From: Tribonema minus
Lineage: Eukaryota > Sar > Xanthophyceae > Tribonematales > Tribonemataceae
Direction of reading: 5' to 3'
Length of the DNA: 64,000 bases
NCBI GenBank assembly: GCA_017506865.1
Contig: JAFCMP010000514.1
Span: 620,001-684,000 of the forward strand
Under the pieces are notes generated by a model that was given only the letters and a program-made list of their open reading frames with translations, made no database searches and was not told the DNA's origin. The translations under genes and the position numbers were made by a program. Below are positions 21,569 through 60,935 of the stretch, piece after piece (position 1 is the stretch's first letter; each line of letters opens with the position of its first letter).

Positions 21569-22108
21569 CGCCTTGAAGTCCTGGTGTCCAGGGCATGAAG
21601 CATCATGCCACCGCCAAGCAGACAGTTCAGGAGCATTTAAGCTGCCGAGGACGGCCTCATGACCTCACTGTGGATCCTCTTTGCTCTCACTTGGCAATTA
21701 TACTTCGCTGGTCAACCCGCAGGCTTTTCTTGCGCTACGATACTGCTTTGCTGCGCCTGATGGTGATGTTAAGACGCTATTAGTCCGCCGCACACGTACA
21801 CCAGAAGATGGCGAAAGCTGGCAAAGCACACACGCGACGCAGCCCATTACTGCTGTTAGCAAGGGGAGTCTGGAAGGAACAATCCCGAGAGGTGAAATGG
21901 GAGCCTCGAGGAGGGGGCCCACGAAGATGACCGTTCATGGCAAGGACTCCGCACACCGCCGAGCGTGCATGTGTGCAGAACAAGCAGCGTGCAGCACAAT
22001 TCTTCCGTCGGAGCACCTGATGACCAGCAGCCCGAGTCACTGCAACCACACCAGAACACATAATCCAGCAATGTTCACCGACAAACGCAGTCTCATTATG
22101 TAGAGGCC
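21569..22108. other. Intergenic region upstream of IRE1
   Basis: This ~540-bp region lies between the IRE1 start and the stop of the same-strand tRNase Z gene. It should hold the IRE1 promoter and the tRNase Z 3' end. I see no ORF with support and no repeats. Confidence 0.5.
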
Positions 22109-30240: not shown

Positions 30241-33200
30241 GTTGAGGATCGCCCAGCAGATCTGCGCGTCGGCGTCGGGGGCGTGGTTCTCCAGCCTGTA
30301 CACGTTGCGCGGCGGCACGTAGAAGTGGTCGCCGGGAGAGAGCAGGTACCTCTGCGCAGTGGCGTCATCAAACGCGTCTGCGGGCCTGTCGCTGCCTTCC
30401 GGAATCTTGGCGATGGCCAGCTCCAGTGAGTAGGGCCTGCGCAGTTGGAGACATGTACCCGGTGCAAGTTGTTGGCGAAAGTGTTAGATGGCGTGCAGGG
30501 CTGACAACGACAGCGGTTCAGTAAGGGGGGTGAAGGCGTCTGCGGGCCTCTGGAATCTTAGCGATGGGCGAGCTCCAGCGAGTAGGGCCTGCAAATGGGG
30601 ACGTGAAAACCGGTGTGAGGTGTTGTCGAAAATGTCAGACGATGTGCTGGACTGACAACGACAGCGGTTCAGAAAGGGGGGTCAAGGCATCTGCGGGCCT
30701 GTCGCCGCCTTTCGGGATTTTGGCGATGGCGAGCTCCAGCGAATAGGGCCTACGCATTTGAAGACGCAACCGGTGCGAGGTAATTTTTGACAAGATCAGA
30801 CGATGTGCAGAACTGACAGCGACAGCGGTTCGGAAAGGGGAGTAAAGGCGTCTGCGGGCCTGTCGCCGCCTTTCGGAATCTTGGCGATGGCCAGCTCCAG
30901 TGAGTATGGCCTGCGCATTTGAAAGCATCATAAATACCCGGTGCAAGGTGGGTTTGACAATGTCAGACGATGTGCAGAGATACACAACCAGTGCGAGGTG
31001 TTGTCGAAAGCGTCAGACGATGGGCAGGGCTGACAGCGACAGCGGTTCAGGAAGGGGAGTACAGGCGTCTGCGGGCCTGTCGCCGCCCTCTGGAATCTTG
31101 GCGATGTCCAGCTCCAGCGCATAGGGCTTGCGCAGTGGCACAATATAAGTGATAATGGATATAGTCAGCGGGTGGCACAGTCTCTGCAATGTGAACCAGT
31201 GTACGGCGGACCGGGGCAACAGTAAATAGCAGTTGCAGGAGCAAAGAATGACAATTATTGATGGCGGCTGTCTGCATCTTCTGCAGTGACGTACCTGCAG
31301 CCAGTGACCCAGTACAGTGTGCGTGTGGTCGTCCACGCTCTCCAGTTCTGAAGCTCTTTTTACACTTCAAAGTGAACTCCAACACCAACGTTCAACAATA
31401 GTATGCAGTGACGCACCTGCAGCTGGTGACCCAGTACAGCTGCGTGTGGTCGTCCACGCGCTCTGCCGCCTTGAGGCCACGTGGCGGAAGCGTCAGTGCT
31501 CCGGAGGACCACGATGACAGGCCGCACGCCGCAGCGCCGCGCACGCTGAATGCGCGCGCCGCCTGCAGCAGCGGCAGCAGCAAGTCAGCAGCAGCAACAG
31601 GTGAGCAGCAGCACTGGTAGCAAAGTGAGCTGCAGGAGCAGGTGTAAAGCAGCAGCAGCAGCAAGTGAGCAGCAGCAGCAGCAGGAGCAGCAGCAGCAGC
31701 CGTGAGCAGCAGCAGCAGCAGCGGCGGCGGCAGCAGCAGTGAGCAAACTCCATCTGACATTCATAAAGCTGGAGAGGAAGGGTGCAGTGGCAGGGTTGCC
31801 TGGCAGCAGCAGGTGCACTGGCCAGTGCATTGCAGGTCAAAACAACACTCAGACGTGCGAGCCAAGTCTGCGGCTCATAGTATGTGGTTTGAGGGTGCTG
31901 GCATTGCGGCGCATGATGAAAGGGACAAAACTTGTATGTTCGGACCTTGTGGCGCCGTCCTTGACACCATCTACAATTTTAACAACAGCACGTATGCTCT
32001 CTCATGTCAGTTGATGCGGTTACCAGGCAATATGAGGTAGTATGTATGGAAACGAATCAAAAGATCGTAGAGCTCTAGGTGACAAAGGATGGTTAGCCGC
32101 AAGTGCCTTCCACCAATAACCGTGGTCACCGCTGCTGCAGTCATTGGCCACGAGTCAAACAGTGCCATCATATCCACAGGTCAAAAGACTTCTGTGTGCG
32201 AGCTTTTTAGCGTTCGAGGGCATGCATGTTCGTATATAGAGGCTTGTCTGCAGATCTAGTATATACATACATACCTGGCAGGGCGCCGAGTTCTCTGCCT
32301 GTCCGTCGGCAAGGTGCAGGCTCTGGTACACCAAGCTGTCGTTCCTGAAGATGATCTCTGACACACACGGGCGACGATAGGGAACATTGGTGGCACGTGT
32401 CAATTGTTGCATTCGAGCCGACTGAATTGCCCTCAGAGCAACGTTCCCAAATAGTGTGAGTCCACATTGCACATGCATATGTATACACCTACATACACCA
32501 TGCACATCTGGCAACGCTCAGCTACAGCCTACAGCGCTCAACTCGCACTCACCCTTCTGCTCCTCACCCTGCGAGTCCGCATCACACATACATACACCAG
32601 GCACGTCTGGCAATGCTCAGCTACAGCCAGCAACGCTCAGCGCTCGTACTTGCATTTCTGCTCGTCCCCCTGCGAGTCCACGTCGTACACAAAACAAATA
32701 CTTCAAGTATATACATACATACACATATTTCTGGCGGTGCTGGCAACGCTCAGCTCACACACTTACGTTTCTACTCCCTCTCCCCTGCGCGTCCATGTCG
32801 TACACAAAAACGTATACATACATACAGTACGCATGTTTCTGGCAGTGCTCAGCTCGCACTCACGTTTCTGCTCCTCCCCCCGCGCGTCCACGTCGTACAC
32901 CAGGCAGCTCTCCTCCATGCGCATGTAGCGCCCGCCCTTCGGCAGCGGCCGCAGCTGACCGGGCGGCAGCGGGCTCAGCTGCGCCGGCGGCACCTGCTGC
33001 TCGGGCGCTGCTGCCGCCGCCGCTGCTCCGTTGCCGTCGCCGCCGTGCTGCTGCTGCTGCCTGCGCCGTGCTCCTGCTGCCTCTCTGTCCCGTGGCCGCT
33101 CTCTGGGGTTAGGGTGAGGGTTGGGACGGAGAATGTGCGGTGATGGTGTCGGTTATGCAAGCGACAGGGTGCGCAGCTACTCGCATTCACGGCGAGCATA

Positions 33201-34319
33201 ACGGAGGCAGCAGGCAGCCGATGTCGAAACCACTCTTACATGCTGCGGTGCGCCGACTGCTGCAATGCGTGCACACGCGCGCGCAATTTGTACACCGCTA
33301 GCGCCCGTCGAGGCCTGTACTTCGCACGAGGTCGAGCGCACAAACAGCGCACAGATGCGGGACAGGGGCCACGCGCCGCAGCTGCTCAGAGCGCAATCAG
33401 TGCTCTGCATTCTCAGCAGCTGCAGCAGCGCTCGTGCGCACGCAGCGCGTCAGCGCTGCCGCGTGCCGCTGACCACTCACCCGCCTCCTCCGCAGCAGCG
33501 CACCACAGCAGCCGCTCAAAGCGCCTGATAGGTTTTCCCATCTGCTGAGTGTTGCGGCGACACACGCGCCACTAGGCCCTCGTGCAACGCTGCTCATCAA
33601 CGCTGCTCATCACGCTCCTCCGCAGCAGCGTACTTCAAGTACCATACTTCAACACGCGCTATGTGCGCTGCCGCAAGCACCGCACACGCTACACTGCGTA
33701 CCTGGCTGGCGCAACCGCTCATGACGCTCTGCACGGGTATGCTACTTCAATTAACCTACTTCAACACCCGCCCTGAGCGCTGCCATACGCGCCGTTCTGC
33801 TCGCCTGGCGGGCGCAACCGCGCTCACCAAGCTCTGCACAGGTACGTCACTTCGAACACCCTACTTCAATACCTTCGCTGAGCGCTGCCGCACTGCGTAC
33901 CTGGCAGGCGCGACCGGCGTTGGCGCCCCCAGCCGCTCCACCCCCCTGACCCCTGGCACGAGGATCCCCGCCGATCGCTCATCAACCTCCGCAGGTACCT
34001 ACTTCAAGTACCCTAATTCAACACCCGCCCTGAACGCTGCCACACGCGCCGAATAAACTTCTCACCTGGCAGGCGCGACCGGTGTCGGCGCCCCCAGCCG
34101 CTCCACCCCCCTGACCCCCGGCACGGGAATCCCCGCATCCAGCGGTGGCGGCGAGTACACCGCCTTCTCGCTCTTCCACCACTCCAGCGTCTGCAGGCGG
34201 CTGCGGCCGCTGCGCCGCACGCCCGGCGTCGCGTTGTGCTGCACGCGCGCGTCCTCAATCTCCACGAAGCGCCGCCGCGGCGCGGCCGGCGTGGGCTCAA
34301 TGACTGCTGCCGCCGCCGT

Positions 34320-34350
<31 letters not shown>

Positions 34351-45453: not shown

Positions 45454-48400
45454 ATGGCGCGTGGCGACAATCGAGCTGCTGGTGGACTGCAGACCGCCAG
45501 GTCAGCGGACACGTGGATGAGCATGACAACCGAGATCCAGTCGCTCGTTGCCAGCGTGCACCGGAGCACCCCTGCAGCAGCAGCACCTGTGAGCGATGCT
45601 CCGGGCATGAGGATGGCCGACGAGCTCACCGGCATGTCCAAGAAGTGGCAGCGGCACTTCAGGCACAGCCAGTGGCAGCTCGCGGGCAAGCTGGGGGTGG
45701 CGGCGGGGGGCATGCTATTCCTGTCCATGTGCGTCGCGTGGACGCAGATCCTGTACCCTCTCGTCCTCAACTCCAAAGTGGCCTTCGAGGTCGTGCTGAG
45801 CGCTGAGGACCAGGCCTCCGGCGCGCCTGCCTACGCCGCCTTTACGCGTGACCTGTACGCCGCGGAGGCGGCGGCGGCGGCGGCGGCGCCCGCGGCCGCG
45901 CTCACCGCGCTGTACCTGTGGAACGTCACCAACGCGCGCGACGTCGTCGCTTCCGGCTACATGCCGCGCCTCGCGCAGGCCGGCCCGTACGCGTTCGTGC
46001 GCCGCACGCGCCGCTACGATATTGTCTTTGCGCCCAAAACCAGCCGCACCGTCTCGTACAAGGAGTGGTCGTACCTGGAGCCCGTGACGGACGCGCGCGC
46101 GTGCCGCGACATGGTGTTCCGCATGGACCTCGCGGCGCTCGCGCCAAACGCCACGGACTGCCCCGGCGCGGCGTGCGACTGCCGCGACCCCGCAGGCGAC
46201 GTCGTGACGGTGGTCAACACGCCGTTCCTGCGCCTCGTGCACGAGGAGACCCCTCAGGTGAAGTTGGACCTGAAGTACGCGCCTGCGAAGTGCGTCTGTG
46301 TGTGACTCTCAGGTTGATGTGCGCGCTGAGGCTGCAGGTACTCGCCAATCAGGCGGCCCCTGGTGAGGCCTGCATGAACTCTCCATACATAGTCTGTAAG
46401 AGTATGTGCGCTGCTCAATATGCTGGCGTGGACGGTAAACGTGTCGTGACGCCGCGTTCGACGCGACTCTGCGTTGACAATCATCAACATGCGGCTCCGT
46501 GTCTCTCCTGCAGATGAGAGTTGCCAGAGTGGCACCATCCTCAGTGCATATGGCGAGTACTCTGTAATAACATGCCCTGATCATTCCTTCAGAGCGTACG
46601 GCTGGAGTTGCAGTGTTCTCCACCAGGCGCTGTGTTGAAGCCGCAAGCTCACATCTTTCCACACCATGATTTTTGGACCTGATGCTTATGCTTGCTGTGC
46701 TCAAATACACGGTTTCCCAGCATTTGTGGTTGAGCCGGTACTCTGGTGCGCATTTGCTGTTGTCCTCTGCGAGCTGATAGATTTCGATCTGGGAACGGAT
46801 ACCATACACAAATACATAGCATACAGCACTCACTGAGCCTGCATTGTTTCAACTCGAGATTGTAATGCAGCTGCTGCATTAGCTAGTGCGTCCAGAAGCA
46901 CTCGATTTCGCGGCACACCGCGCAACAGATCTATCTCTCCCCCGCTGCCACAAGCATTTTCTTCTTTCCCGACTTCGTGCTGCAGTCACTGCACCCACAT
47001 AGTGCTTAATCAAAGGCGTATCGCTCAATGACGTATCGCCCAATGGCGGTGTCGCTGCTCCGCTGCTGCAGGGCCTCCTAGCGGACCTTGCGCAAGAAGT
47101 CTTCGAGGGCATACACACCGCGCTCACCGGCGGTTTCGTACTCGCGACCAAGGCGGCGCTGTTGCCGGGTATGCTGGAGTCCGTGTGGAAGTACCGCCGC
47201 GCCGCTGACGCCGCGCGGACCGTCGGCGCGCTGTATGCGCACATCGCCGGCGACATTGGAGCGGATGCCGCACGCAAAGCGTTCATAGCACCAGGTTAGC
47301 GGAACTTCACCCCTAACCCCAACCCTGATCCTACGAACCTAACCTCTGTCACAAAGTGCCCTAAATGCTGCACGAACCGTCAGCGCGCTGTATGCGCACA
47401 TTGCGGGCGACATCGGAGCTGATGCTGCACGCGATGCTTTCATAGCACTAGGTTAGTATAGCTTCAACTGTGAACCTAGCGAACACCTGCGAGCCCAAAA
47501 CCTAGCTCACCTGAATTGGTTTGGGTGTACCGCCATGCCACCGACGCCGCGTAAACCTTTGGCGCGCTGTATGCGCACATTGCGGGCGACGTCGGCACTG
47601 ATGCCGCACGTGACGCATTCATAGCCCCGGGTTAGAGCAGTCCTTCAACTCTGAACGTGACCCTGGTCCTAACCCTAACCCTAACTTAAGTCACCTAAGT
47701 GGGTGCGCGCCGCCGACGCCGCGCGAAACGTCCGTGCGCTCTATGGGCATGTTGGGGTGATGTGGAGCTGATGCCACACGCGACGCATTCATAGCACCAG
47801 GTCAGAGCACAACTTCAACCCGAACCTAAACCTGACCCTAGCCCTGACCCTAGCCTAAGTCACCTGAGTCTATGTGCGCCGCCGATGCCGCGTGAACTGG
47901 TTCGCTGCATGCGCATATTGAAGGCAGAATCGGAGCTGATGCTGCACGCGACGCGTTCATAGCACCAGGTCAGTATAGCTTGGACTTAAAACCTAACGAA
48001 CCCCTGAGAGCCCAACCCTAGCTCAGCTGAATTGGTGCGGGTGTCACCGATGCTGCGCAAACCGTCGGCGCGCTGTGTGCGCACATCGCGGCCGACGTGG
48101 GAGCTGATGCTGCACGCGACGCGTTCATTGCCCCAGGTCAGAGCAGAACTTCATCCCCATTTTCAACCCTGATCCTCAATCTTTTCCTAGCCCAAGTCGC
48201 CTGAGTCGGTGCACGCTGCGGATGCCGCGCCAACCGTCGGTGCGCTGTCGCGCACGCTGCCGGCAATTATTATCAGAGATGATGCCGCCCCCGCATCGCG
48301 TTCGCCCGTCAGAGCGGACTGTTACCCTAGCCCTCGCTCTAGCCCCCTGAGCGCAACTCTACTGTAGCTCATCAGAGTCGGAGTGAGTTTACCGCTGTCA

Positions 48401-51400
48401 GAGCTGCGCAAGCAACGTCAGTGCCGATGCCGCATGGGTCAGCGCAACATCAAGCCTAGCCCTAAGCCCGGCTTGCCTGAGTCGGCACCGCCGCGCGAGT
48501 CTGACGATATCCCCTACCCTCACCGTTACCCAGCCCCATTTCTAATCCTAGCCCACGTGAGCATCAGACCTCCGCTTTCGCCGCGTCAGGCTCCTGTTGC
48601 GTGAAGCGAGCCGGCAAAGTGCTGGCGTCTTTGCACTTCCGGACGACTTGAAGTAGCATCTGCTCGCCCTCGCAGCAGCTGCTACTTCGTGTGACACTTT
48701 CTTACCTATCGGAGACGTGCTGGGTCTGAGCACAGCTCGAGCGCACTCACATTTGAGCATCGGGGAGCATTCATGGTGCAGATGTTTCATGCTCTGTGCC
48801 CGCCCTCCTTGCTGCCGCGCACGTACAGGTGACCCCCCCGCCCCCCCCCCCCCCCCCTAAACTCCCCGTGGCTTGATGTAGTGAAAAGTTGTGCTTGCTC
48901 ACGCATGCTAGTAGTACTTCTCACACATGACTCCCCCCCCACCCTGCGCTTACGACACACCATCCATCGCGCAGGCACGCAGGATGCTGCCATAGACTGC
49001 GGCGGCTACTCCGTCCCCCCCGCCAGCGACGCCGCCGCCGCCCCGCCGTGCCCCTGGGGCGCCGGCGCCTACGTCGCCGCCGCCGCAGCAGCAGCAGCGC
49101 TCCCTGGCGCCGCGGCGCTCGCGCTCACGGCGGCGGAGGCGGAGCACCTGCTGGGCGCGCGCGCGCCGCCGCTGCTGAGCGCTGCTGCCGACGGCGCGCT
49201 GAGCGATGCCGCGAGCGTCCCCCTGTGGCTCGCGACGGGGCGCCTGCTGGGGGCGGACGCGCTGGCGGCGGTGGCGCCGTGGCCGATGCGCGGCGCGCGC
49301 GAGCCGGGCGACGGCGCGCAGCGCGCGGCGCTGGTCGCGCTCCTGTGCTCCTGGGAGCCCGCGGAGACGGGCGCGGCGGCGCCTGAGGAGCGGAGCGCGG
49401 GGTGGGGGGAGTGCGGCGCAAAGGTGGATGGGGTGGCGGCGTGGCTGTTTGCGACGTGGTACCGGGAAAGCGGGTGAGTGCGGCCGTGTGAGTGGTATGG
49501 TAACCCTGATTCCCACGCTTGGAGTGAGGGTTCGGGGTGGTAACCCTGACTCCGAAGGTGAAAAATAGAGCGGGTGAGTGCGAGAGCGCTGCGTGGTTGG
49601 GTTGAATCAGGGGTAGGGTCGGGTCAGTTACTGCAAGAAAGGGGCCATAATTATAGGCCGCAGCAGGGTCAAGTGAGGGTTGAGAATCGGGCAAGTGACC
49701 GTGAAATTGGGGTCAGGTTTCTAGGCTGCAGTAGGGTCAAATCAGGGTTAAGGGCTGGGTCAGTGACTGTAAGAGTATGGTCGGGATTGTAGGGTGATCA
49801 ACTCTAATCCTGGGCGCTAGTAACACCAACCCAAACTTTACCCGCAACGAGAGAGGGTTAGGGGGGGGGGGAGTAGGCGCCCCTTGGGGGGCAGGGTAGG
49901 TATGGTAGCTCTAATATCCAAGCTTGGAGTCAACGTTTGGGGTGGTAACCCCAACACCCAAAGTTAAGTAGAGATTACAATTGGGGAGCGAGAGAGCGAG
50001 GTGCGCTTGGGCTGAGTAAGGGGTAGGGTATGTGTCAGCGACCCTCAAGTCGGGGTTTGGATTTGGGTGATCAACCCTGCTGGTCCGAGTAACCCACACC
50101 CAAACTCAACGTATGAGTAGAGCGTGTGAGTGGACACGCAAGGCACCCTTCAGGTGAGGTAGGTATGGTAATTCTAGCCCCAAGCTTAGTGTAAGGGTTG
50201 GGGACAGTAGCCCTAAGATGAGGGTTTATATTAGGGTGACAAAACCCCAGCCTGTCTTCCCCTTTACTCATGGAAAGCTTACATCTCATTGACAACATCC
50301 GATGCACACCTGCGTCATGTATGATTCCACGGAGTGGCTGAACGCTGCTGACGCCGCGGCCCTACATAGTCTGCTGGCATTTGCGCACCCCCCTTGTTCT
50401 GCACTCACAACAAGCATACATCTCATGAACGGCATCTGCTGCACACCTTCACCGCGCGCAGCTCCGCAAAGCGTGTCACAGCAGAGTGGCTGAGCGCTGC
50501 TGACGCTGCCACATTCCAACTTGATATTGTTACGCCGACCCCCCGTCCTTCACCCAAGGGCGGAGGACTTGGTGCTGACTTCAAATTGAAATCTGTCACT
50601 GTGGGTCTCTCTGGCGCACCTGCGCCACGTACCTGCAGCTCCACAGGGCGCGCCACAACGGAGTGGCTGAGCGCTGCTGCCACTGCCTTGCGCACCCATC
50701 CTCTCCTTCACTCATGGAAGTATAATACAATACTTGCAGCACATCTCACCTGAGGGAGACTCAAAAAAAAGTACAACTCACGGACAACATCTGCTGCACG
50801 CATGCGCCGCTCGCAGTTCCGCAAACCGCGTCACAACGGAGTGGCTGAGCACTGCTGACGCTGCCACCCTCGCCTGCGGGCCTTTGCGCGCCCATTTTCT
50901 TCTGTACTCACTACAAGTACACACTCCGCACGCAGTTCCGCGGAGCGCGTCGCGGCGGAATGGGTGAGCGCTGCTGCCGCTGCCACCTCCCAGCTTGATG
51001 TCATTGCGCCGCCCCCCCTCCTTCACTCAAGCGCACAGGACTCAGTGCCGAATACATGGTTTCCTCATGCGCACCTGCACCACGTACGTGCAGTTCCGCG
51101 GAGCGCGTCACAACGGAGTGGCTGAGCGCTGCTGACGCTGCCACCCTCGCCTGCGACGGAGCGTCGGACGCCTGCGGCTGGCCCATAGGCGCTGCCGCGG
51201 GGCTGTCGCTTGAGGCGGCGCGCAGCATCATGGATCCGGGACTCGCGACGGTCTCGGTGAGCGCTGCTGCATTGATTTGCTTTCCCCTGGGGGTATGTAG
51301 GTTGGACAGTTTAATTGCATTGATTTTCTCCTGGACATGTGGGTCATGGAGTACGTGCCATTAAGCGTAGGCGCTGCCGCGGGGCTGTCGCCCGGCATCA

Positions 51401-52631
51401 TGGATCCGGGACTCGCGACGGTCTCGGTGAGCGCTGCTGCAGTGGTTTCTTCTTTTCCTGGGGGGTAATCCTCATGGGACGTGGGCTGGGGGTTTGTGCT
51501 GCAGTGAACTGCCATGACTGGCATTTCTGCACAAGGCTGCTGCTAACAGAGCTGTCACACACATCAGCAATATCACACACAGAGTGAGAATGCGTTTTGA
51601 TGCTCCCGCACAGCGCCCTGCGTCCGCTTGCATGGACCCAGCAAACCGCCAACGCCTGCAGTACCAGTAGCTGTAACTGCAGCCCGCTCTGCATGACAAG
51701 ATGCCAGGGCCTGCGGCGGCTGTTCATGTAACTTCAACTTGTTGAACCGTAGCTTCATGTTTGAACTTGCTGCTGCTGCGCCGCAGTGCTGCGCGCGGGA
51801 TGTGACTGTAACCTCATCTTCTTGAACTTGCTGCTGTGACGCTCCGTGCAGGACGCCCCCTCGCTGCTCAGCGTGCACTCCCCCAAGGGGTTCATCCTGT
51901 GGGCGGATGCGTACCGCTATTGTTCCGCACCAGACCGGAGCTGTGCCGAGTTCTCCCCCTCTGCCATAGAGGCCGCAACTGTGACTCTCCCTGCGAACTT
52001 CCCTGCAGGTGACACTCCTTTGTAGTTGTTTGCTTACTGCAGCCTTAATCGTTAGATCGTGTCATTGCGTGTTGCGGCGATCTGCCAGCAGCTACGGCAG
52101 TGACTCTCTCCTTGAAGGCAGGGTTGCTCTGCAAACTTCGCAGTATGTTGGGGGGTGTTGCACGACTTTGCAGCAGCAACAACAATGCCTGTGCCACTCC
52201 TCATGTAGGACACTGCATCACCTTTATTCGGAGTTACATGCACCATATGTACCTGAACACAAAGCCTACATGCCCTCTGCTACTGACAGCCGTGTAGCTC
52301 TCAGCCTGTTCAACCAGACATTGGTGTGCATGTGCCTTCAATGCGTGGTCCTGATATACATAACCACACAAGCCTATCTGCCCTTTCCTACTGACAGTCG
52401 CGTAGCTCTTACTCTCAGCCACTGGCCATCGATGTGCGTGCTGCCTTAGGTCACGGCGGCTAGGGTTAGGGTTGGGGCTAGCGCAGTGCTCACTGCCCCA
52501 TCCCATCTTCAACATCCGTCTCAAAACCACGCGGATACGCATACTTCAACACGCACAATGACCCCCACTTCAACTCACACGCGCGCGCGCCCCCCTCGAC
52601 ACCCATCTCGCTGCGCTGCGCGTACTTGAAC

Positions 52632-52727
<96 letters not shown>

Positions 52728-55700
52728 CAACTCACCCCCTTGACCCCCCCCTTCGCCCCCCCCCCCCCCCCCCGCCGCAGCTGACGCCGCAGCAGACCCC
52801 AGCGGCGCCGCGCGCGCCGCCGCCATCTGCAGCACCGCTCAGTACCTCTTCCGCAACTGGGCCGGTACCTCACCGTGGGCGGCGGGCGCGGCGGCGCGCT
52901 ACTTGAGCGCCGTCCTTCCGCAGGGCACGTTCTCCGTAACCGACGACCTGACGGCGCTGGGGTACGCGCAGTGGGGCGGCGGCCACGTCACGCGCGCGCT
53001 GTATGGGCTGCCGAGCGTGACGGCGGTCGCGCGCGCCGGCGCGTGGGCGCTCGTTCCGAGAAGGTTCTACGGCGCGCTCCCCGAGTTTGGCGCGCGCGCC
53101 GCCGCGGCGGGGTACCCGTCGATGGCGCTGCCGGTGGCGACGGCGCGCGCGCTGCTGACGGGTGAGCGCTGCTGCGGACGGGTAGGGGGTGTGTGCGTTG
53201 TCGGATAATGCGACATGTTTTTGTTGCAGCTGACGTAGTAACTGGTGTTGATAAATGTTTGTCACGCAGGCGGCGTGCTGCTGCCGACATGGCGCTGTGC
53301 TCGCTAGCAGTGTTGGGGGCCTGAGACTCTGCTGTCGACATCTACCTCAAGAATTCGTTGTAGTACAGTGTCGTAGGGGCTCTGTGCAGGTACGACATAG
53401 GAGCGTTGTGGCTCATGGTACCATCATTGGTTTCATGAAATTCACTGAGACTTTTGTGAGTCATCGCTTGTTGACGTTGTAGACTGAACAGCGCCTTGAC
53501 TGCAAGCCTGCCACCACGCCATCGCCAATGCTTGTGGCAGCATTAGCACATCAACCGCATCCTATCATCACTCTTCAGACCGTTTGAACTTGCGGTAACG
53601 ATTGGAGTCAGCTAGGTAAGGGCCAGGGTTGGACACCCGCCATGCACACATTCAGTGCTCGCGCACTCGCACAGAACCGGGCTCACTCATTCACCGTACG
53701 ACTAGCACGCACACACAACAATGGCACGGCGTTGCACACGAACTTCATACTCACGACAATGCCACGCGTACTTGCAGGGCTTGGTGCTCAAGCCCTCAGA
53801 AAGCACGCGGGTGTCTTTGCAGGGCTAGCGTGCGCGGACGACGCTGGCAGACGGTGGCGCAACTCATTACCAGGGCAATGTTGTGCACACCTGCACCCTC
53901 AGCCGACGACCGTACCTCTCCCTTTGCCGCAGGGCTGGCGCGCGCAGACGACGCTGGGAGGGCGCTGCGCAAGCACGTCATCACACGCGCCACCACCTAC
54001 TCACGGCAATGTTTCGCGTACTTGCAGTAACAGGTGCTCAAGTTCTCAAACACGCGGTTGTCTCGTTCACCGCAGGGCTAGCACGCGCAGACGACGCTGG
54101 GAGGGCGCTGCGCGCGCACGTCATCACGCGCGCCACCACCTACTACGGCACCGGCGACGGCGACGGCTTCGCGGCCGGCGACGCCATGCACGTGGAGGAG
54201 AACACTGCGGCGGACTACGCCACTGACGACCCGCAGGTAATGACATCCATTGCTCAGGAAGGGCTAATTATTGTCTTTGACGAAGGCAGTAACGGTCCTG
54301 AAGTGGGTTTAAGTGGGACATTGAATTTGGCACAGCATCGGCAATAGCAACGGTTTTTCCCCGATCTTTGGGTGAGAACACCGCCGCAGCCTACGCCACT
54401 GACGATCCGCAGGTAGCGACATCCGTTTTTCTTTTGTCACTGATGGTGTGTGGTGAGGACAGTGACGTGTCAAAAGTGTGATTGTCAGTCAAGTTGGGAT
54501 AAAGTACAGTTGACACAGCACAGTGGTGACGGCTTCGCGGCCGGCGATGCGATGCGCGTGGACAAGAACATCGCGGCAGACTACGCCCCCGATGACCCGC
54601 AGGTAACGACATCCGTTGTTGTATTTAAGTCGATTGGTATGTTACAAGGGTGGTGAATTTGCTGGACTGCCGGCGGCTGCGCGATGCGGGTGGACGCGAA
54701 CGCTGTTGCAGACTACGCAGCTGGCGACTGGCAGGCAACAACCTGAGGTACTTGGGAAGTATTTTTTTATGATTGGTCGTTGGCAAAGGCGGTAATGTTG
54801 CTAGAGTGCTGCCGCTGATGCGGTGCACATGGACTAGAGCGCTGTAGCAGACTGCGCCGCTGGCAACCCGCTGGCAGTGACCTCGGTTGTTCCGTTTCAG
54901 AGCCTGTCAGACTATCCGACTATGTGTATTGACGGTCTGTGACGAGGGGCAGTGACGTCATGCACAGAAAAGCAGACCATTCATGCGCTACCGCCGCCGC
55001 CGCCGCCGTCGCAGGTGATCGCGGCGCTGGGCGGCGACGCCGCCGCCGCGGCGCGCCACCTGGCGGCGCTCTGCGCCACCACGCTCAGCAGCGCGGCGGA
55101 GTGCGCAGCGCTCGACACGTACCACCAACACTGCGTGGCGTCGGCGCTGCTGCCCGACAGCGTCGCGGTGAACTGCGACGCGTTCCAGACGCGCGTCGCG
55201 AACCCCGCGCGCGACCCGCTGCGCGGCGCGCAGTGCACGGCGGCGCGGCTCGAGGTGCACTACCACCCCTGGCCGAAGCAGGCGGGCGGGGTGCTTGCGG
55301 ACGCGCTGTCGAGCTACGTGTGGCGCCAGGTATGTAGGTATAAGTATGCATAGGTACGGTGTGGTGCCAGTACTGATATAGGTTTAGTGATGCTGGGTAT
55401 GTAGGTATATGGGTGCTACAGATATGTAGGTACGGGTGGCGTGAGGTATCTTGGGTACGAGTGGTTAAGTATGGGTATGGGTAGGTAGCGGCGGCGCCAT
55501 TGTGTGCAGGTATGGGTGGCACTGGGTATGTAGGCATTGGTCACTTCAGGTATGCAGGTGCGTGGCGGCATGGGGCACGTGGGCACGAGTGGTGCCAGGC
55601 ATGATGGTCTGCAGAGACTGCAAGTGCGTCGCCACGTGCGCAACCCTTCGCACCGCGCTGCACAACCGCGCCCTCAGGCGCTGACGGGCACTTAACGTTG

Positions 55701-58700
55701 GGCTCAGTTTGAGGCCCACCACGTCGTGCGAGTGCTATCGGGCCGTCCACCCAGCAACCCGCATGACTCCCTTTGCTCTCCTTGCTGCGCCAACAGAGGA
55801 CGCTCTGTTTGTCTGCGCTGTACGCGAAAGAAGCACCAGCGCGCACATGCGCTCGTGACCCGTGGCCACAACGCTCAGGCACAGGCTGCATTGACCCGTG
55901 GCCACAACGCTCAGGCACAGGCTGCATGTACAGCCTGCGAACGTTCACGAACGAATCGTCGCGCACTACCGGACGCACTGCCCCACCATTATCCTAACCC
56001 TAACCCTAGCCCTGACCCTTACTCTAATCCTAGCCCTAGCCTTAACCACGCACCAAAACTTCTCGCGCGCAGGCGCTCATGGGCGCCGGTTGCGCATGCG
56101 CCTGCAGGCATCGCACTACTCAAGGAAGGCTCACTAATCACCACCTTCTGCGCTGCATAAGCACCTTGTGCTACTGCCGGAAAGAACTGCGAACGGGAGT
56201 GGGGTTAGGGTTAGGGTTAGGGTTAGGGTTAGGATTGCTGTTGTGGACGGCCAGGTCCCGCTGTTGTACCTTGTCTGCATGCATCCGCCGCTATCGCGCA
56301 ATTGCCCAGGGACCAGCGATACTTCTTCTTTCGCACCAGCACAAAGGCACTGACTTTGATCTGTTTCACGCACCCGCGCTGACATTTACGAACCACGCCG
56401 CAGGTGCTCATGGACGGCGGCTACGTGTGCGCCTGCAGGTGACCAACGCACCACCTAACCCTAACCCTCTAACCCTAGCCCTAACCCTGACCCTAACCCC
56501 AACCCTAACCCTCGTAGGTGCTCATGGACGGTGGGTACGTGTGCGCCGCCGGCGTCGCCGCGGCCGACGACTGCGACCACGCGCGCGGCGGCCTCTTCAC
56601 CACCGCCCCCGCGCTCAACGTCCTCTTCCGCGGCCGCGCCGACCCGCTCGTCATGAAGCTGCTGAGCACCCGCTACCGCGCGCGCGGCGTGAGCTACGCG
56701 TGCGCCACCCCCGCGGCGATCGCACGCGACGCCGACACCTGCGCGATGATCGAGAGCGGCGCGCCGTGCGGCGGCGACGGCGGCTTCACCGTGCGCGCTG
56801 ACGGCGGCGGAGCGTCGCCGGTTGAAGTTGTGAGCGTGTCGCCCGCGCAGCCGGCGCTGTGGCATGCCGCCGAGGTGCAGCTGCCACGCGGCGGCGGCGG
56901 CGTGCGCAGCCCCGTCTTTGCGCTGCGGCCGGGCGGCACGTGGGGCGACGAGGCGTTTCAGAAGGCGCAGGCGTGCGGCGACTGGCGCATGCTGGGGGGG
57001 CCCGCGGGGCTGTGGAACAGGCGAGACAACAACTTCAACATTGTCAACACTTCAACATGTCACAACTTCAATGATGTAACAACTTCAACATGTAACAACT
57101 CCCATTGTCACAACTTATACGTTGGACTTGGTGGGCCCTAACCTCAAGGCTGATGAACCCCAAAGCCAGCCTTCAGTGGGTGTCGTGTGCACAGCAGACG
57201 GGTTTTAAAACATGTGGAACAGGCAAGCACACAACTTCAACTTCGTACCCTTGCAAGTATGCGGCTGGCCCGAATTCTAGGCCTGACCACTTTTCTAGCC
57301 CTCAATGCATTTCGTGTGCGCAGCCAATCGACCATGTCCAGACATGCTGCGGCGCAAGACTTGCATTGTCACGTGCCACATGGCGTAGGTACCAGGCCAC
57401 TGAGTACGATTTGTATTCCGTGCACGTTTTGTCATGGCATGTACGTGAGAGGTTCAGGATCAGTGGCTAGTGTGTTAATATCATGATGGAAATAGGGGTA
57501 GAGCTAGGCCACGACGCATTGCTACTGCGCCATGTGCAGCGGCTTGCAACGCTGGAGGAATAAGGTTAGGATTTGAGTTGAGGGCAGGGGTCGAAGTGAG
57601 GGTTAGGGTTAGCGCTAGGTTACTCTGCAGCAGGCACGGGCGCAGACGTCAGTGGCAACATTCAGCAGCCGTGAGCCAACAGGACAGGCGCTTTCCAGTG
57701 TGCAGCCACATCGCACAGCGTTCCAGCCTGAGTCAGAGTCTGATTCACATCACGATGCCACAGCAGGGCCCCATTCACTCACTATCACCACATCGCCTAT
57801 CCGTGCAGCTGCGAGACGACACTGGAGACAGGCCGCGAGGGCTTGGACAGAGTCGGGCAGTACGTAGCAATCCACGGCAACACGACCATCTACCCCATAC
57901 CCGCCGCAGCTGCCGCAGCTGCTGCCGCCGACGCGCGCGCCGCCGCCGCCGCCGCGGCACCAGCTGCTGCTGCTGCAGCCGCGGCAATGACCACCACTGC
58001 CGCCACTAGCACTGGTGGCAGCGGCAGCAGCGGCGGCAGCAGCAGCGCGCTGCGGGTCGGCGGCGGCGGCGTGACGGCGAGCTTCGCCCCGCAGCTGTGG
58101 GAGGGGTTCGCGCGCTACGCGCTGCCGTACGGCGCGCGGCGCTCCGGAACGCGCGCGGACGGTTCCGGGACCGTTCCCGTGCTCTCCGGCGACGCGCTGA
58201 CGGTGTTTGCCATGGCGCGCGAGGACGCGCAGGCGCTGAGCAGCGCTGAGAAGCGCGCAGCAGCGCTCAGGGTGCCGACGCCGACGACGAATGCGCAGCT
58301 GACGGCGCGGCCGGAGGTGTACGCGCCGGTGAACCGGTACTACGCGGGCCCCAGGTGGGTAGGCATGTATGGTGATGGCGAGTGTGTGATACATTCTTGA
58401 GGTATGTGTATATGTATTTGTATGTATAGAAGCTGCAAGCACGGCCGGAGGTGTACGCACCGGTGAACGAACCGGTACTACGCGGGCTCCAGGTAGGCAT
58501 GTATGGTGATAATGAGTGATACCCCAGAGGTACTGCAGAGGCATGTATTTCGTATGTATATACATAGGAGCTGGCTGAACGTACGGAGGTGTACGCGCCG
58601 GTGAACCGGTGCTGCCCGGGCCCCAGGTAGGCATGTACGCATCTCAAATCGTTGCTCCTAGCACCACTTGCACCTCAAGGCAAGTGGGGTGTCAGGCGCG

Positions 58701-60718
58701 AGCACAGCAAGTGATGGAATGTGCCACAATGCCTCACGGTGCGCGGTGCCGCAGCCGCATATGATTCGCAAAGCAGCGCTCGGCGCACAGTCGCGCGCCA
58801 TCACCGCCCAGACTGTGGTGTGCACCGCACAGAGTGTGACTAGGCACGTCTCTCTGCGGGTTAGGGTAACGGGTAGGGTTAGGGTCAGCCTCGGCATGCC
58901 CTTACACAGTACCCCCCGGCATGTCGGCCACAGCAGCGCTCAGCGGACTGCCCTCTTTCGCCAGCAGTACTAATAACCTCCTTACATTCCGAACATCAAG
59001 GAAACTCATTATTGAGAAAGCATGTTCATCGGACGCTATCGTGTGCAGCGACTGGGCGGCGGCGGGCGCGCGTGTAGGATTATCTCTCCGCGACAGCCTC
59101 GGCATGCCCTACGCAGTACCCCCCGGAATGTCGGCCACGGCAGCGCTCAGCGGAATGCCCTCCTTCGCCAGCGACGCGCACTTCTACAGCAACGCGGCCG
59201 CGGGCGGCGTAGACTGGAGCCGCCTGCAGAACCTGTCGCCGGCGCAGTCGCGTCATGCGAGCACGGTCGACGTGGATCCCGTGACGGGCATCGCGATGCG
59301 GCACGCTCTGCGCACTCAGGTTAGACGTACATCAGAACATGCACTTTTAAATACGTGTTTGATGTTGTGAAACTTTGTTGATGAAGTTGAGCGACGCGAG
59401 CACGGTGGACGTGGATGCGGTGACGGGCATCGCCATGCGGCGCGCTCTGCGCTCACAGGTATGTATACTTCAGAAGTAGAGTGCTCTGCGCACGCAGGTT
59501 GGCTGTACATCGAAGCATGCTTCTTGAGATGGGAAGGTTTTGATATGTTGAAATTTTGTCGATGCAGTCGAGCAATGCGAGCACGGCGGACGTTAATCCC
59601 GTGATGGGCACCGCAATGCGGCGCGCCTTGCACACTCAGGTTGGATGAACATGAAAGCAGGCTTTTTGAAACGGGTATATGATGTTGTGAAGCTTTGCCG
59701 ATGCAGTTGAGCGATGTCAGCACGGAGGAGGTGGATCCCGTGAGGACTCAGGTCGGGTGTACATCAAAACATGCTTTTTGAAAAAAACATGTGATGTTTT
59801 GGAGCTTTGCTGATGAAGTTGAGGGACGCGAGCACGGTGGACGTAGATCCCGTTATGGGCATCGCGATGCGACTTCAAGTACGCACGTGCGGCCCGCTAG
59901 AGCGCACAAGGGGCGTGCTGCCACGCAGCACGGTTTGCGCACAGCACGCAGGCATGCATCGTTTTCAAGCAAGCGGATCCTGGTGCTTGAGAACTGGTGC
60001 CGCTTGTTCAAGCTGCCGATACGGTGACCTGTTGCAGGGGTGTTACATGCGAAGCTGCCCTGCTGCGTTTTTACAAGACGCTGCATCATCCCTCCTCCCA
60101 GACACTGCCACAATGACGGGCGCTGCTTCTCATCACCGACACGGCAACACTACTCACATTCACTTGCTCTCTCCCCCGCCATGATGCAAAGAGCACCACA
60201 CTGCTGCGCTGCTCTGTGACACTAACACCGTAGCGCCGCACCGCAAAACACACAAAGCTGCAGCGCGCCGTCTGGCACCAACGCCGCTCACACACCTTTT
60301 GCCCCCTCCCCCCTCCCTTCCGCCCGCTTGCCCCCTCCCCCCCCCCCTTCCCCCCCCATTTTTTGCCCCTTGCTGCTCGCTGCCGCAGGTGAGCCTGCGC
60401 GTCGAGCGCAGCGCCCTCCTCCCCGCGCTCACCACCAACCAGGACCGCTGCCCCGCGCCCACCAAGACCGCCTTCGCGGGCGGCTACGGCTGCTTCCTAT
60501 ACATACCCCTGGCCTGGACGGACGACCAGCGTGTCATCGACGACGCCTCGGCGCGCCGCCTCGCAGACGAGTTCTGGCTGTACCCCACGCGATACGCGCC
60601 GCGCACCGCGGCGGCGGCGGCGCTCGCGGCGGCGGCGCTCTGCGGCGGCGGCGCGCTGCTGTGGGCTGTGTGCCGCTGGCGGCGCCGCAGGTTCGAGGCG
60701 ATCGTGTACGTCGACTAG
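45454..60718 (+). CDS. Giant CD36/LIMP-2 (scavenger receptor class B) family protein, twelve exons
   Basis: Exons 45454-46257, 47072-47294, 48975-49473, 51094-51256, 51852-52008, 52781-53161, 54076-54236, 55015-55329, 56518-57020, 57809-58354, 59097-59319 and 60389-60718 join with all phases agreeing, giving 1434 residues against ~470-530 in animals. CD36-family proteins are plasma-membrane or lysosomal lipid receptors with two membrane spans and a large lumenal domain. The N-terminal span is at ~79-106. Then comes LYLWNVTNARDVVASGYMPR, GPYAFVRRTRRYDIVF and VSYKEWSYLEPV, the family's opening strands. The closing part is in exons 11-12: PGMSATAALSGMPSFASDAH, STVDVDPVTGIAMRHALRTQ, VSLRVERS, then a second span (~1398-1422) and the tail RRFEAIVYVD. 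Between lie ~900 residues of lumenal sequence, Cys-containing and partly Ala-rich (LTALGYAQWGGGHVT, NCDAFQTR). Intron 9 appears to be GC-AG. Confidence 0.85.
47357..48315 (+). repeat. Six tandem copies of the CD36-gene exon 2 donor edge
   Basis: The last ~105 bases of exon 2 plus ~65 bases of intron (real edge 47190-47294; GALYAHIAGDIGADAARKAF then IAP) recur at about 47357-47455, 47525-47635, 47700-47800, 47870-47970, 48033-48140 and, badly decayed, 48205-48315. Period is ~165-175 bases. The first five keep TTCATAGCACCAG|GTTAG- or GTCAG-type donors, while stops and indels accumulate; the sixth has lost the donor. Intron parts carry CTTCAAC and CCCTAACC motifs. A still weaker seventh may lie near 48400. 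Confidence 0.95.
48830..48858. repeat. Poly-C tract in CD36-gene intron 2
   Basis: A nearly pure run of about 25 C lies ~120 bases upstream of the exon 3 acceptor, followed by a second C-rich stretch closer to the acceptor. Confidence 0.85.
49555..50245 (+). repeat. Loose tandem copies of the CD36-gene exon 3 donor region
   Basis: The real junction reads GGAAAGCGGGTGAGTGCG at 49464-49481. Similar AGAGCGGGTGAGTGCGAGAG occurs at 49567 and AGAGCGTGTGAGTGGACACG at 50119, with a weaker form near 49990. Between them the phrase GTTCGGGGTGGTAACCCTGA recurs in variants (49530, 49935, 50180). The array is more decayed than its neighbours; only a few exon bases are included in each copy. Confidence 0.65.
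50298..50995 (+). repeat. Five tandem copies of the CD36-gene exon 4 acceptor edge
   Basis: The first ~60 bases of exon 4 with its acceptor (real at 51066-51155; AERVTTEWLSAADAATLAC) recur near 50298-50360, 50437-50517, 50611-50690, 50790-50880 and 50925-50995. All share GGAGTGGCTGAGCGCTGCTG or close variants. Four keep a CAG/GCAG acceptor-like ending just before the exon part. The copies are ~135-180 bases apart and increase in similarity towards the working exon. Confidence 0.95.
51369..51470 (+). repeat. Copy of the CD36-gene exon 4 donor edge
   Basis: This repeats 51188-51300, the last ~70 bases of exon 4 and the intron start. Both contain ATCATGGATCCGGGACTCGC followed by GACGGTCTCG|GTGAGCGCTGCTGCA. 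The copy lacks 15 bases (LEAAR) but keeps frame and an identical donor, so it could be spliced in place of the true edge if joined by an acceptor. Confidence 0.93.
52629..52725. repeat. (CA)n microsatellite in CD36-gene intron 5
   Basis: Nearly pure CA dinucleotides run for ~95 bases with one interruption (AAACAC near 52649). A 29-base C-rich run (52745-52773) then leads straight into the exon 6 acceptor. Confidence 0.97.
53640..54011 (+). repeat. Tandem copies of the CD36-gene exon 7 acceptor edge
   Basis: The start of exon 7 with its acceptor (real at 54065-54150; GCAGGGCTAGCACGCGCAGA) recurs near 53926-54011 (almost identical for ~75 bases, including the ITRATTY codons) and 53814-53880. 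A weaker version may lie near 53760-53800. Each keeps a GCAG acceptor. Period is ~110-150 bases. Confidence 0.9.
54373..54890 (+). repeat. Four tandem copies of the CD36-gene exon 7 donor edge
   Basis: The end of exon 7 (real 54160-54236; ENTAADYATDDPQ|GTAATGACATCC) recurs at 54373-54430, 54523-54620, 54670-54745 and 54818-54890. The first two keep CCGCAG|GTA.CGACATCCGTT donors; the second also repeats GACGGCTTCGCGGCCGGCGA further upstream. The third and fourth have lost the donor and most codons. Decay increases with distance from the exon. Confidence 0.93.
55332..55605 (+). repeat. Short repeats built on the CD36-gene exon 8 donor
   Basis: The real junction reads TGGCGCCAG|GTATGTAGGTAT. 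Variants of GTGG(C/T)GCCAGG and of GGTATGTAGGTA recur about every 40-60 bases over the next ~270 bases (for example near 55360, 55396, 55425, 55508, 55527, 55590). Only the last dozen exon bases are included. Confidence 0.65.
55992..56517 (+). repeat. Telomere-type tracts and copies of the CD36-gene exon 9 acceptor edge
   Basis: CCTAACCCTAACCCTAGCCC starts near 55993; five perfect GGGTTA repeats lie at 56200-56228, in the opposite sense; and CCCTAA variants run from 56455 to 56512, ending AACCCTCGTAG at the exon 9 acceptor. Between the tracts, copies of the exon start lie at 56397-56445 (CCGCAGGTGCTCATGGACGG, then CGGCTACGTGTGCGCC) and, decayed, at 56068-56110. The real exon begins GTGCTCATGGACGGTGGG at 56518. 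Confidence 0.9.
57205..57245 (+). repeat. Copy of the CD36-gene exon 9 GC-type donor edge
   Basis: TGTGGAACAGGCAAGCACAC, then AACTTCAAC, repeats TGTGGAACAGGCGAGACAAC at 57011 with its following AACTTCAAC. Phase with exon 10 works only if the exon ends AACAG and the intron begins GC. The copy has the ideal GC-donor sequence AG|GCAAG. Confidence 0.75.
58428..58640 (+). repeat. Two tandem copies of the CD36-gene exon 10 donor edge
   Basis: The end of exon 10 (real 58295-58354; RPEVYAPVNRYYAGP then AG|GTGGGTAGGCATG) recurs at 58428-58500 and 58567-58640. Both keep GGAGGTGTACGC.CCGGTGAA and CCAG|GTAGGCATGTA donors that are closer to consensus than the original GTGGGT. Period is ~135 bases. Confidence 0.95.
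58855..58965 (+). repeat. TTAGGG-type tract and copy of the CD36-gene exon 11 acceptor edge
   Basis: GGGTTAGGGTAACGGGTAGG starts near 58858. Directly after it, 58887-58958 repeats the first ~70 bases of exon 11 (real from 59097): CAGCCTCGGCATGCCCT, ACCCCCCGGCATGTCGGCCA, GCAGCGCTCAGCGGA.TGCCC. The shared boundary at CAG|CCTCGGC supports that acceptor for the true exon. Confidence 0.92.
59395..59885 (+). repeat. Four tandem copies of the CD36-gene exon 11 donor edge
   Basis: The end of exon 11 (real 59255-59319; ASTVDVDPVTGIAMRHALRT then Q|GTTAGACG) recurs at 59390-59462, 59567-59650, 59706-59760 and 59817-59880. The first three end in CAG|GT donors; the last has CAAG|TACG. A partial extra donor (GCGCACGCAG|GTTGGC) sits near 59490. 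Period is ~110-175 bases. In the first copy the coding sequence is intact and in frame. Confidence 0.95.
60301..60388 (+). repeat. Polypyrimidine tract of the CD36-gene exon 12 acceptor
   Basis: C-rich sequence with runs of 6-10 C and scattered T extends from 60301 to 60358 and is followed by GCTCGCTGCCGCAG at the exon. It is much longer than a typical pyrimidine tract. Confidence 0.8.
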
Positions 60719-60839
60719 CGGCGGCGGTGGCGGCGGCAGCAGTGGCGGCCGCGCGTGCATCGAGGGGCACACTGCCGCCTTAGGTCTCGTTGCCGCAGCG
60801 GCGCATGGAGCTTGCGCACGCGGCCGCGCATGCGCATGC

Positions 60840-60935
60840 AGCGACGGAGCGGCAGGCGCAATTCGTCTCGGCGGCGAGCTGCTGCGCCGCTGCTGCCGCC
60901 GTAGATTCGGCGAAATCATGTATGTCGACTGAGGG
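60840..60935 (+). repeat. Degenerate copy of the CD36-gene last-exon end, beyond the stop
   Basis: The end of exon 12 encodes RRRRFEAIVYVD and stops at 60718. About 215 bases downstream a matching frame reads CCRRRFGEIMYVD and stops at 60932, preceded by a similar GGCGGCGAGCTGCTGCGCCG stretch. So edge duplication also affects the terminal exon, in what should be the 3' untranslated region. Confidence 0.85.

Follow-up and report, generated by a model that had tools for sequence, protein, structure and literature searches.

Intron growth is usually credited to transposons and random insertion, and in some algae and other protists introner elements, which form dispersed families, are a genome-wide source of intron sequence. 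A tandem duplication across an intron-exon boundary has been described in a potato RdRp gene where, according to the part of the report available, one event made a new intron (PMC4974935); the same part summarizes the AGGT exonic duplication model of intron gain (Rogers; the ATP2A1 case). Small tandem duplications also arise by CST and Pol alpha-primase fill-in of 3-prime overhangs, according to the available part of a further report (PMC8355091). Here we describe introns of the yellow-green alga Tribonema minus (Xanthophyceae) that contain arrays of copied exon edges, found in a CD36-family gene and beyond it; the gene lies in a window (the whole stretch of DNA analyzed) of 64,000 nucleotides (nt), positions 620001-684000 of contig C511 in a 158-megabase genome of 554 contigs. 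The copies are direct repeats of a contiguous segment of exon plus intron, lying beside the original. Like the potato duplication, as far as the available text describes it, the duplicated segment straddles a splice boundary and brings splicing signals into new sequence; unlike that case of one gene and one event (PMC4974935), existing introns of T. minus are lengthened by arrays of fixed exonic extent, in about a third of the sample. Intronic minisatellites likewise consist of head-to-tail local copies, but the T. minus unit includes an exon edge and a splice site. Among the matches listed from the openly licensed literature, in the portions of text available, no description of genome-wide exon-edge arrays was found; duplication across a splice boundary is already known from single cases (PMC4974935), and, judged from the same portions, it is the scale and the stereotyped unit that appear new.

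Each edge of the CD36-family gene (100 nt of exon plus 60 nt of intron) was locally aligned to its own intron and compared with 100 dinucleotide shuffles. Copies that include exon sequence exceed the shuffle maximum in 8 of the 11 introns, which they occupy as nine sets, two of them single copies (Table 1); the exon-edge repeats reported in the original prediction are thus real. That prediction had counted at least eleven arrays: nine sets are solid, and eleven is reached only by admitting weak cases, the intron 9 donor copy (28 aligned nt, about 10 of them exonic) and a possible copy of the stop-codon end. Copies do occur on both sides, as had been claimed, at the donors of introns 2, 4, 7, 10 and 11 and the acceptors of introns 3, 6, 8 and 10, and they flank exon 7, with three copies at the intron 6 acceptor and four at the intron 7 donor. 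Intron 3, held to carry an array at each end, has one of five copies at its acceptor, while its donor side shows short extras only; short extra matches are also present at the intron 9 donor and in intron 10 (a 13-nt match), and some further matches are intron-only. In the same alignment, introns 1 and 5 gave no edge copies. Intron 8 has, besides its two exon 9 copies, one telomere-like, intron-only match, and telomere-like CCCTAA/TTAGGG runs lie within CD36 introns at 47645-47700, 55993-56047, 56202-56233 and 56454-56512. In intron 2 (47295-48303), inspection by eye reveals two alternating types of intron part (copies 1 and 4 versus copies 2, 3 and 5), that is, a higher-order repeat, so that arrays also grow internally. 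Tandem Repeats Finder picks up one CD36 edge array (59634-59853), most being too diverged for it.

The unit is stereotyped in size, a feature absent from the original prediction. In a metaprofile of 59 introns, donor-side exon windows starting at -80 to -20 are copied in 25-34% of introns, those at -100 in 3% and deeper ones in none, and acceptor-side windows starting at 0 to +40 in 9-17%. Copied exon sequence extends about 80 nt from the donor junction and roughly 60 nt from the acceptor junction, and its end within the exon is sharp. Exonic extent, searched to 200 nt of exon, is 66 +/- 16 nt in 29 arrays, a range whose upper bound is not a detection effect and whose lower bound partly is. 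Among those 27 of the 29 arrays whose period does not exceed 230 nt, the nearest period is 158 +/- 28 nt. An exonic part above 100 nt was found in 1 of 27, against 43% expected under uniform breakpoints, and none of 5000 draws was as low. Possibly, the fixed extent stems from a nucleosome-scale break or copying step, or from selection against long exon-like copies. Copies that stop short of the junction were left out of the analyses of unit size and intron homology, as of those of splice sites, site strength and p-distance reported below. Under gap-tolerant alignment, 68 of 84 copy pairs show homology in the intron part of the unit; an earlier low-gap measure of intron-part identity, 0.54, is too low, and homology across an indel is evident by eye in n33, a young array that is 97% identical over 217 nt. 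When the units of introns 2 and 11 were compared with the genome, in a search that covers those two units and scores best candidates only, 6 of 6 and 5 of 5 listed matches fell in their own locus, the query included. This speaks against a mobile element for both units, which, unlike introners, are not seen at many loci.

The pattern extends beyond one gene. We sampled the window and five 50-kilobase (kb) stretches (250 kb) of five other contigs, with the gene finder retrained on all; introns outside the CD36-family gene are self-trained gene-finder predictions, not annotation. This gave 83 donor and 83 acceptor edges, each flanked by strong coding exons, to which one stretch (C112) contributed none. 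The last or first 60 nt of exon were aligned to the adjoining intron, a score of at least 40 counting as a copy. Copies were present at 19 of 83 donor and 14 of 83 acceptor edges (outside the window, 13/62 and 11/62), against 1/64, 0/64, 0/70 and 0/70 in exon-interior and wrong-edge controls and 0.2-0.6% in introns of other genes. Under an alternative criterion, a score above all 40 nulls, the figures are 15/83 donor and 18/83 acceptor edges, with 3, 2, 2 and 0 in the controls. The original prediction had proposed such a scan of intron edges against controls; run on the sample, it yields an excess at edges, the controls standing at 0 to 1 of 64-70. In a self-comparison of 72 introns (the 83 donor edges less 11 without a matched acceptor partner), automatic classification assigned edge copies to 30 (20 at donors, 16 at acceptors; 21/53 outside the window). 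Three were dropped on inspection, n38 and n81 being exon-to-exon repeats and n78 an exon-interior copy, which leaves 27 of 72 (donor 18, acceptor 15; 18/53 outside the window). In the 30 automatically classed introns, repeats that can be recognised make up a mean of 34% of the intron, compared with 4% in the remaining 42. Another tally, of 77 introns, found edge copies in 26 (8/11 in the CD36-family gene, 18/66 elsewhere). Edge copies are therefore widespread in the T. minus genome, in about a third of the introns sampled, though unevenly between contigs.

Two explanations of these counts can be set almost entirely aside. An assembly artefact from noisy long reads, for which the use of a single assembly leaves room, is very improbable, because most copies have diverged from the exon, by several to more than 20%, and have different intron parts, and exon-interior controls stood at 0 to 1. 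Even less credible is that the arrays are traces of intron birth by a duplicated AGGT-bearing exon piece. In the available summary of the Rogers model, as in T. minus, tandem duplication supplies splice sites and leaves the protein unchanged, and some arrays are young, with AG/GT at the repeated junction; however, the AGGT signature is seen in 0 of 77 introns (intron start resembling downstream exon start, 0/77; intron end resembling upstream exon end, 0/77), and the units are part intron.

We regard recurrent tandem duplication across the junction as the probable origin of the arrays; it would be tolerated as long as splicing keeps to the outermost site, and the copies would afterwards decay. 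A segment of about 100-220 nt (some 66 nt of exon and 90 nt of intron) would be duplicated locally, and repeatedly, at exon-intron borders, the new copy landing on the intron side; the protein would be unchanged, because splicing would continue at the site that adjoins the intact exon. As duplication recurs, units are duplicated again within the array and copies decay, arrays would build up, lengthening the intron and leaving extra near-functional splice sites within it. Such duplications would originate at the DNA level, for example by fill-in repair of staggered breaks. The CST/Pol alpha-primase duplications offer a DNA-level route of this kind to short direct duplications, but they are introduced among insertions of less than 100 base pairs, with no tie to splice junctions found in the available part of the report, and the link to T. 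minus is one we infer (PMC8355091). Constraint on the exon, perhaps together with exchange between exon and copy, may keep the exonic parts alike. That copies never extend into the exon, as the original prediction stated, is expected because coding duplications would be purged. An intact frame of 1436 amino acids in the CD36-family gene, together with the continuity of the Ribonuc_2-5A domain across an array-bearing intron of IRE1, points to the outer junction as the working one.

A number of observations weigh against this reading. Near-donor intron windows match elsewhere in their own intron in 6-17% of cases in the metaprofile, and 13 of the 72 introns hold interior repeat families independent of edge arrays. 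Donor edges with copies are unevenly distributed (C13, 8/13; window, 6/21; C334, 4/14; C46, 1/18; C90, 0/17), at least two of the 72 predicted introns (n2 and n11) are probably intergenic spacers joined by the gene finder, and the arrays are known from one assembly only. Use of the outer site is itself something we infer from open frames. Moreover, of the 12 arrays with two or more copies, just 5 have a nearest copy that is more alike than the farthest; intron growth by tandem duplication, as originally proposed, is supported in that the copies are local, direct and at both edges in 27 of 72 introns, whereas the fall of similarity with distance from the exon does not hold as a general rule. 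Between intronic copies the p-distance is 0.19 in the exonic and 0.44 in the intronic part, lower in the exonic part in 11 of 12 arrays, a gap that is partly alignment failure (copies were found via the exonic part, and some intronic parts, as in n33, are misaligned around indels). Plain neutral duplication does not predict less-diverged exonic parts, and this counts against it. Gap-tolerant, substitution-only identity is 0.82 exonic versus 0.77 intronic on the donor side and 0.83 versus 0.79 on the acceptor side; exonic parts thus seem better conserved, mostly through fewer indels. Finally, differences between exon and copy favour third codon positions, by a ratio of 2.46 (jackknife standard error 0.37; 58 copies in 32 arrays, with n2, n31 and n55 left out) versus 1.61 +/- 0.14 in a neutral simulation. 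Both the exonic conservation and the third-position excess would be compatible with exchange between the exon and its copies, or with selection that is weak or lies in the past.

Uniform neutral duplication leaves the fixed exonic extent and the excess of edges over interiors unexplained. It could be argued that tandem duplication occurs evenly across the genome and that its link to edges is apparent, the exon serving as a constant template while interior copies blur twice as fast; the interior families in 13 introns would agree with this. We simulated duplications aged 1-25% with nearly constant exons, using 26 array-free introns as templates and assumed indel and age settings. Edge duplications were detected in 787 of 882 cases and interior ones in 673 of 883, which, given the available positions, predicts an edge-to-interior ratio of 0.24; we observe 27 introns with edge copies against 13 with independent interior families, about eight times the simulated value. 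Detection of interior copies does drop faster with age, and in the oldest class (53/92 edge, 8/81 interior) the prediction rises to about 1.2, leaving an observed excess of less than twofold. Nor would even duplication account for exonic extents as far from uniform as those given above. Gene ends, where copies would be in its favour, gave a mixed picture. The strict control found no copies at the 4 usable stop and 5 usable start edges, numbers kept small by the gene finder joining neighbouring genes. With looser settings, scores of at least 40 occurred at 4/26 and 4/30 stop edges and 7/31 and 7/44 start edges; at least the top stop-edge match (47299) is a wrongly split CD36 intron, and others adjoin known array edges, with some unassigned. 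When stop edges were rescanned strictly, 7 of 28 remained, including 4 with scores of at least 36 that we judge to be low-complexity. Together with the possible copy at the CD36 stop codon, the unassigned edges leave even duplication some ground, and we hold it to be unlikely. Somewhat less doubtful, and still only tentative, is that junctions are a mutational hot spot copying a nucleosome-sized segment, which breaks in the exon some 66 nt away from the splice site, and that exchange with the exon, or selection as spare edges, then keeps the exonic parts of the copies alike. If true, this would mean a duplication process linked to splice junctions that sets intron length genome-wide.

The copies could instead be functional, as alternative exons or splice sites under selection for variant proteins or splicing regulation. 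A splice site is kept in 30 of 33 donor copies (GT 27, GC 3) and in all 16 acceptor copies, that is, in 46 of the 49 whose alignment reaches the junction, as had been claimed, and the scores of these sites are close to those of working ones. The exonic conservation and third-position excess point the same way, and two copies are in-frame exons of a public protein, as follows. The 12 CD36 exons, the first of which has an open reading frame with a Pfam CD36 match, splice to the 1436-residue frame with a terminal stop, and have one GC donor, at exon 9 (57020). The spliced product is 93% identical over 75% of its length to a public T. minus protein, JKP88DRAFT_261336, the only one listed. By eye, the two join introns 2, 3, 4, 5, 6 and 8 identically and differ in the ends of introns 1, 9 and 10, and the public protein takes in as exons two intronic copies, 54519-54602 (intron 7) and 59387-59458 (intron 11). 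The same two copies, among others, were called exons by our self-trained gene finder, which uses composition and splice-site weights alone and was trained in its first round on the CD36-family gene and five Pfam-supported pieces. Since the gene finder makes these insertions without RNA, the public choice need not rest on RNA, and the two copy-exons may have entered the annotation through a faulty ab initio prediction, or they may be genuine alternative exons. Several further results count against function. A good acceptor lies near the start of 9 of 33 donor copies, versus 4 of 33 in a control stretch, with 4 of the 9 in frame, and acceptor copies have the opposite site in 2 of 16 versus 1 of 16. 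Of 31 gaps in copies, 27 are not multiples of three and break the frame, and stop codons (4/1143, 0.35%) are not clearly depleted relative to simulation (0.57 +/- 0.22%). The codon-position and stop-codon tests are suggestive at most, and functional copies in general strike us as quite unlikely. As a group, the copies do not fit tandem-duplicated alternative exons, each of which would have an acceptor, a donor and an intact frame; single copies may qualify.

Copies like those of the CD36-family gene also occur in other genes of the window. The original prediction had placed the pattern in IRE1, and donor-edge copies are indeed found there in two introns, one of which, 13568-14092, sits between positions 72 and 74 of the Pfam Ribonuc_2-5A profile (its two flanking exons match profile positions 16-72 and 74-126); the other is predicted to lie in the luminal part, where PQQ matches fall below the cut-off. 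The stretch 20173-22153 was predicted as an intron, but the gene finder fuses a tRNase Z exon to IRE1, and its far end is no true intron border. For the gene named CENP-C the copies stand, whereas its identity is not backed by Pfam: no family matched 34068-34346, and we call the gene CENP-C-like only tentatively, from a motif. Further tandem arrays of period 72-161 nt lie at 2440-2861, 20118-20467 (overlapping an array-bearing exon edge), 30395-30977 and 33701-33889.

Table 1. Exon-edge copies and related features in the window (Max., highest score among shuffles).
Feature	Positions	Strand	Remarks
CD36-family gene, 12 exons	45454-60718	+	joined exons form one open frame ending in a stop
Exons 1-6	45454-46257, 47072-47294, 48975-49473, 51094-51256, 51852-52008, 52781-53161	+	
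Exons 7-12	54076-54236, 55015-55329, 56518-57020, 57851-58354, 59049-59319, 60389-60718	+	
Intron 2 donor-edge array, 6 copies of exon 2 end	47367-48303 (47367-47456, 47531-47680, 47706-47863, 47876-47973, 48049-48176, 48214-48303)	+	scores 48-129; Max. 27
Intron 3 acceptor-edge array, 5 copies of exon 4 start	50329-50987 (50329-50363, 50440-50512, 50614-50687, 50813-50878, 50932-50987)	+	scores 50-112; Max. 28
Intron 4, single copy of exon 4 end with donor	51368-51467	+	score 122; Max. 28
Intron 6 acceptor-edge array, 3 copies of exon 7 start	53686-54008 (53686-53748, 53766-53850, 53927-54008)	+	scores 46-131; Max. 27
Intron 7 donor-edge array, 4 copies of exon 7 end	54374-54892 (54374-54427, 54525-54618, 54674-54738, 54808-54892)	+	scores 45-118; Max. 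26; second copy in public protein
Intron 8 acceptor-edge copies of exon 9 start	56068-56114, 56399-56433	+	scores 31, 55; Max. 28
Intron 9, weak short copy of exon 9 end, GC donor	57213-57241	+	score 39; Max. 25
Intron 10 donor-edge copies of exon 10 end	58431-58522, 58584-58637	+	scores 100, 81; Max. 27
Intron 10 copy of exon 11 positions +45 to +100	58886-58941	+	short of junction; score 89; Max. 27
Intron 11 donor-edge array, 6 pieces of exon 11 end	59396-59871 (59396-59460, 59483-59559, 59564-59697, 59703-59743, 59746-59809, 59828-59871)	+	scores 37-118; Max. 26; first piece in public protein
Weak possible copy of exon 12 stop-codon end	60878-60930	+	score 38, reached by 2/244 other 1-kb pieces
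IRE1 intron in RNase domain, donor-edge array (n17)	13568-14092	-	3 copies
Intron in IRE1 luminal part (predicted), donor-edge copy (n12)	18648-19983	-	one copy, 88.7% identical, period 139
Stretch upstream of exon 19984-20172, acceptor-edge copies (n11)	20173-22153	-	two copies, 76-95% identical
Intron with donor-edge array (n20)	33057-34065	-	gene with CENP-C-like motif

The sampled introns have other sequence features. One motif, TTGAAGT/ACTTCAA (e.g., 57028-57116), is enriched, with 48 and 41 occurrences over 63.7 kb of introns where 2.7 and 2.3 would be expected; of 94 sites counted, 33 are no more than 100 nt away from a donor. The telomere-like sequences AACCCTAACC and GGTTAGGGTT are found 7 and 6 times, against 0.02 expected each. 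About 1 in 10 predicted donors in the sample is GC (28/271), and acceptors favour GCAG. Elsewhere in the assembly, large contigs contain broken rbcL fragments (L009:1501-1689 and L010:1501-1650), likely plastid-derived insertions and presumably red-type.

Recurrent duplication across splice junctions would mean that a large share of T. minus introns preserves a history of extension starting at the exon, in which numerous near-functional splice sites have been left behind. A single organism would then allow direct tests of how introns lengthen, how splicing chooses between neighbouring sites that are nearly identical, and how alternative exons arise. In genomes of this kind, gene models can mistake exon-edge copies for exons, as the public CD36 model may have done twice.

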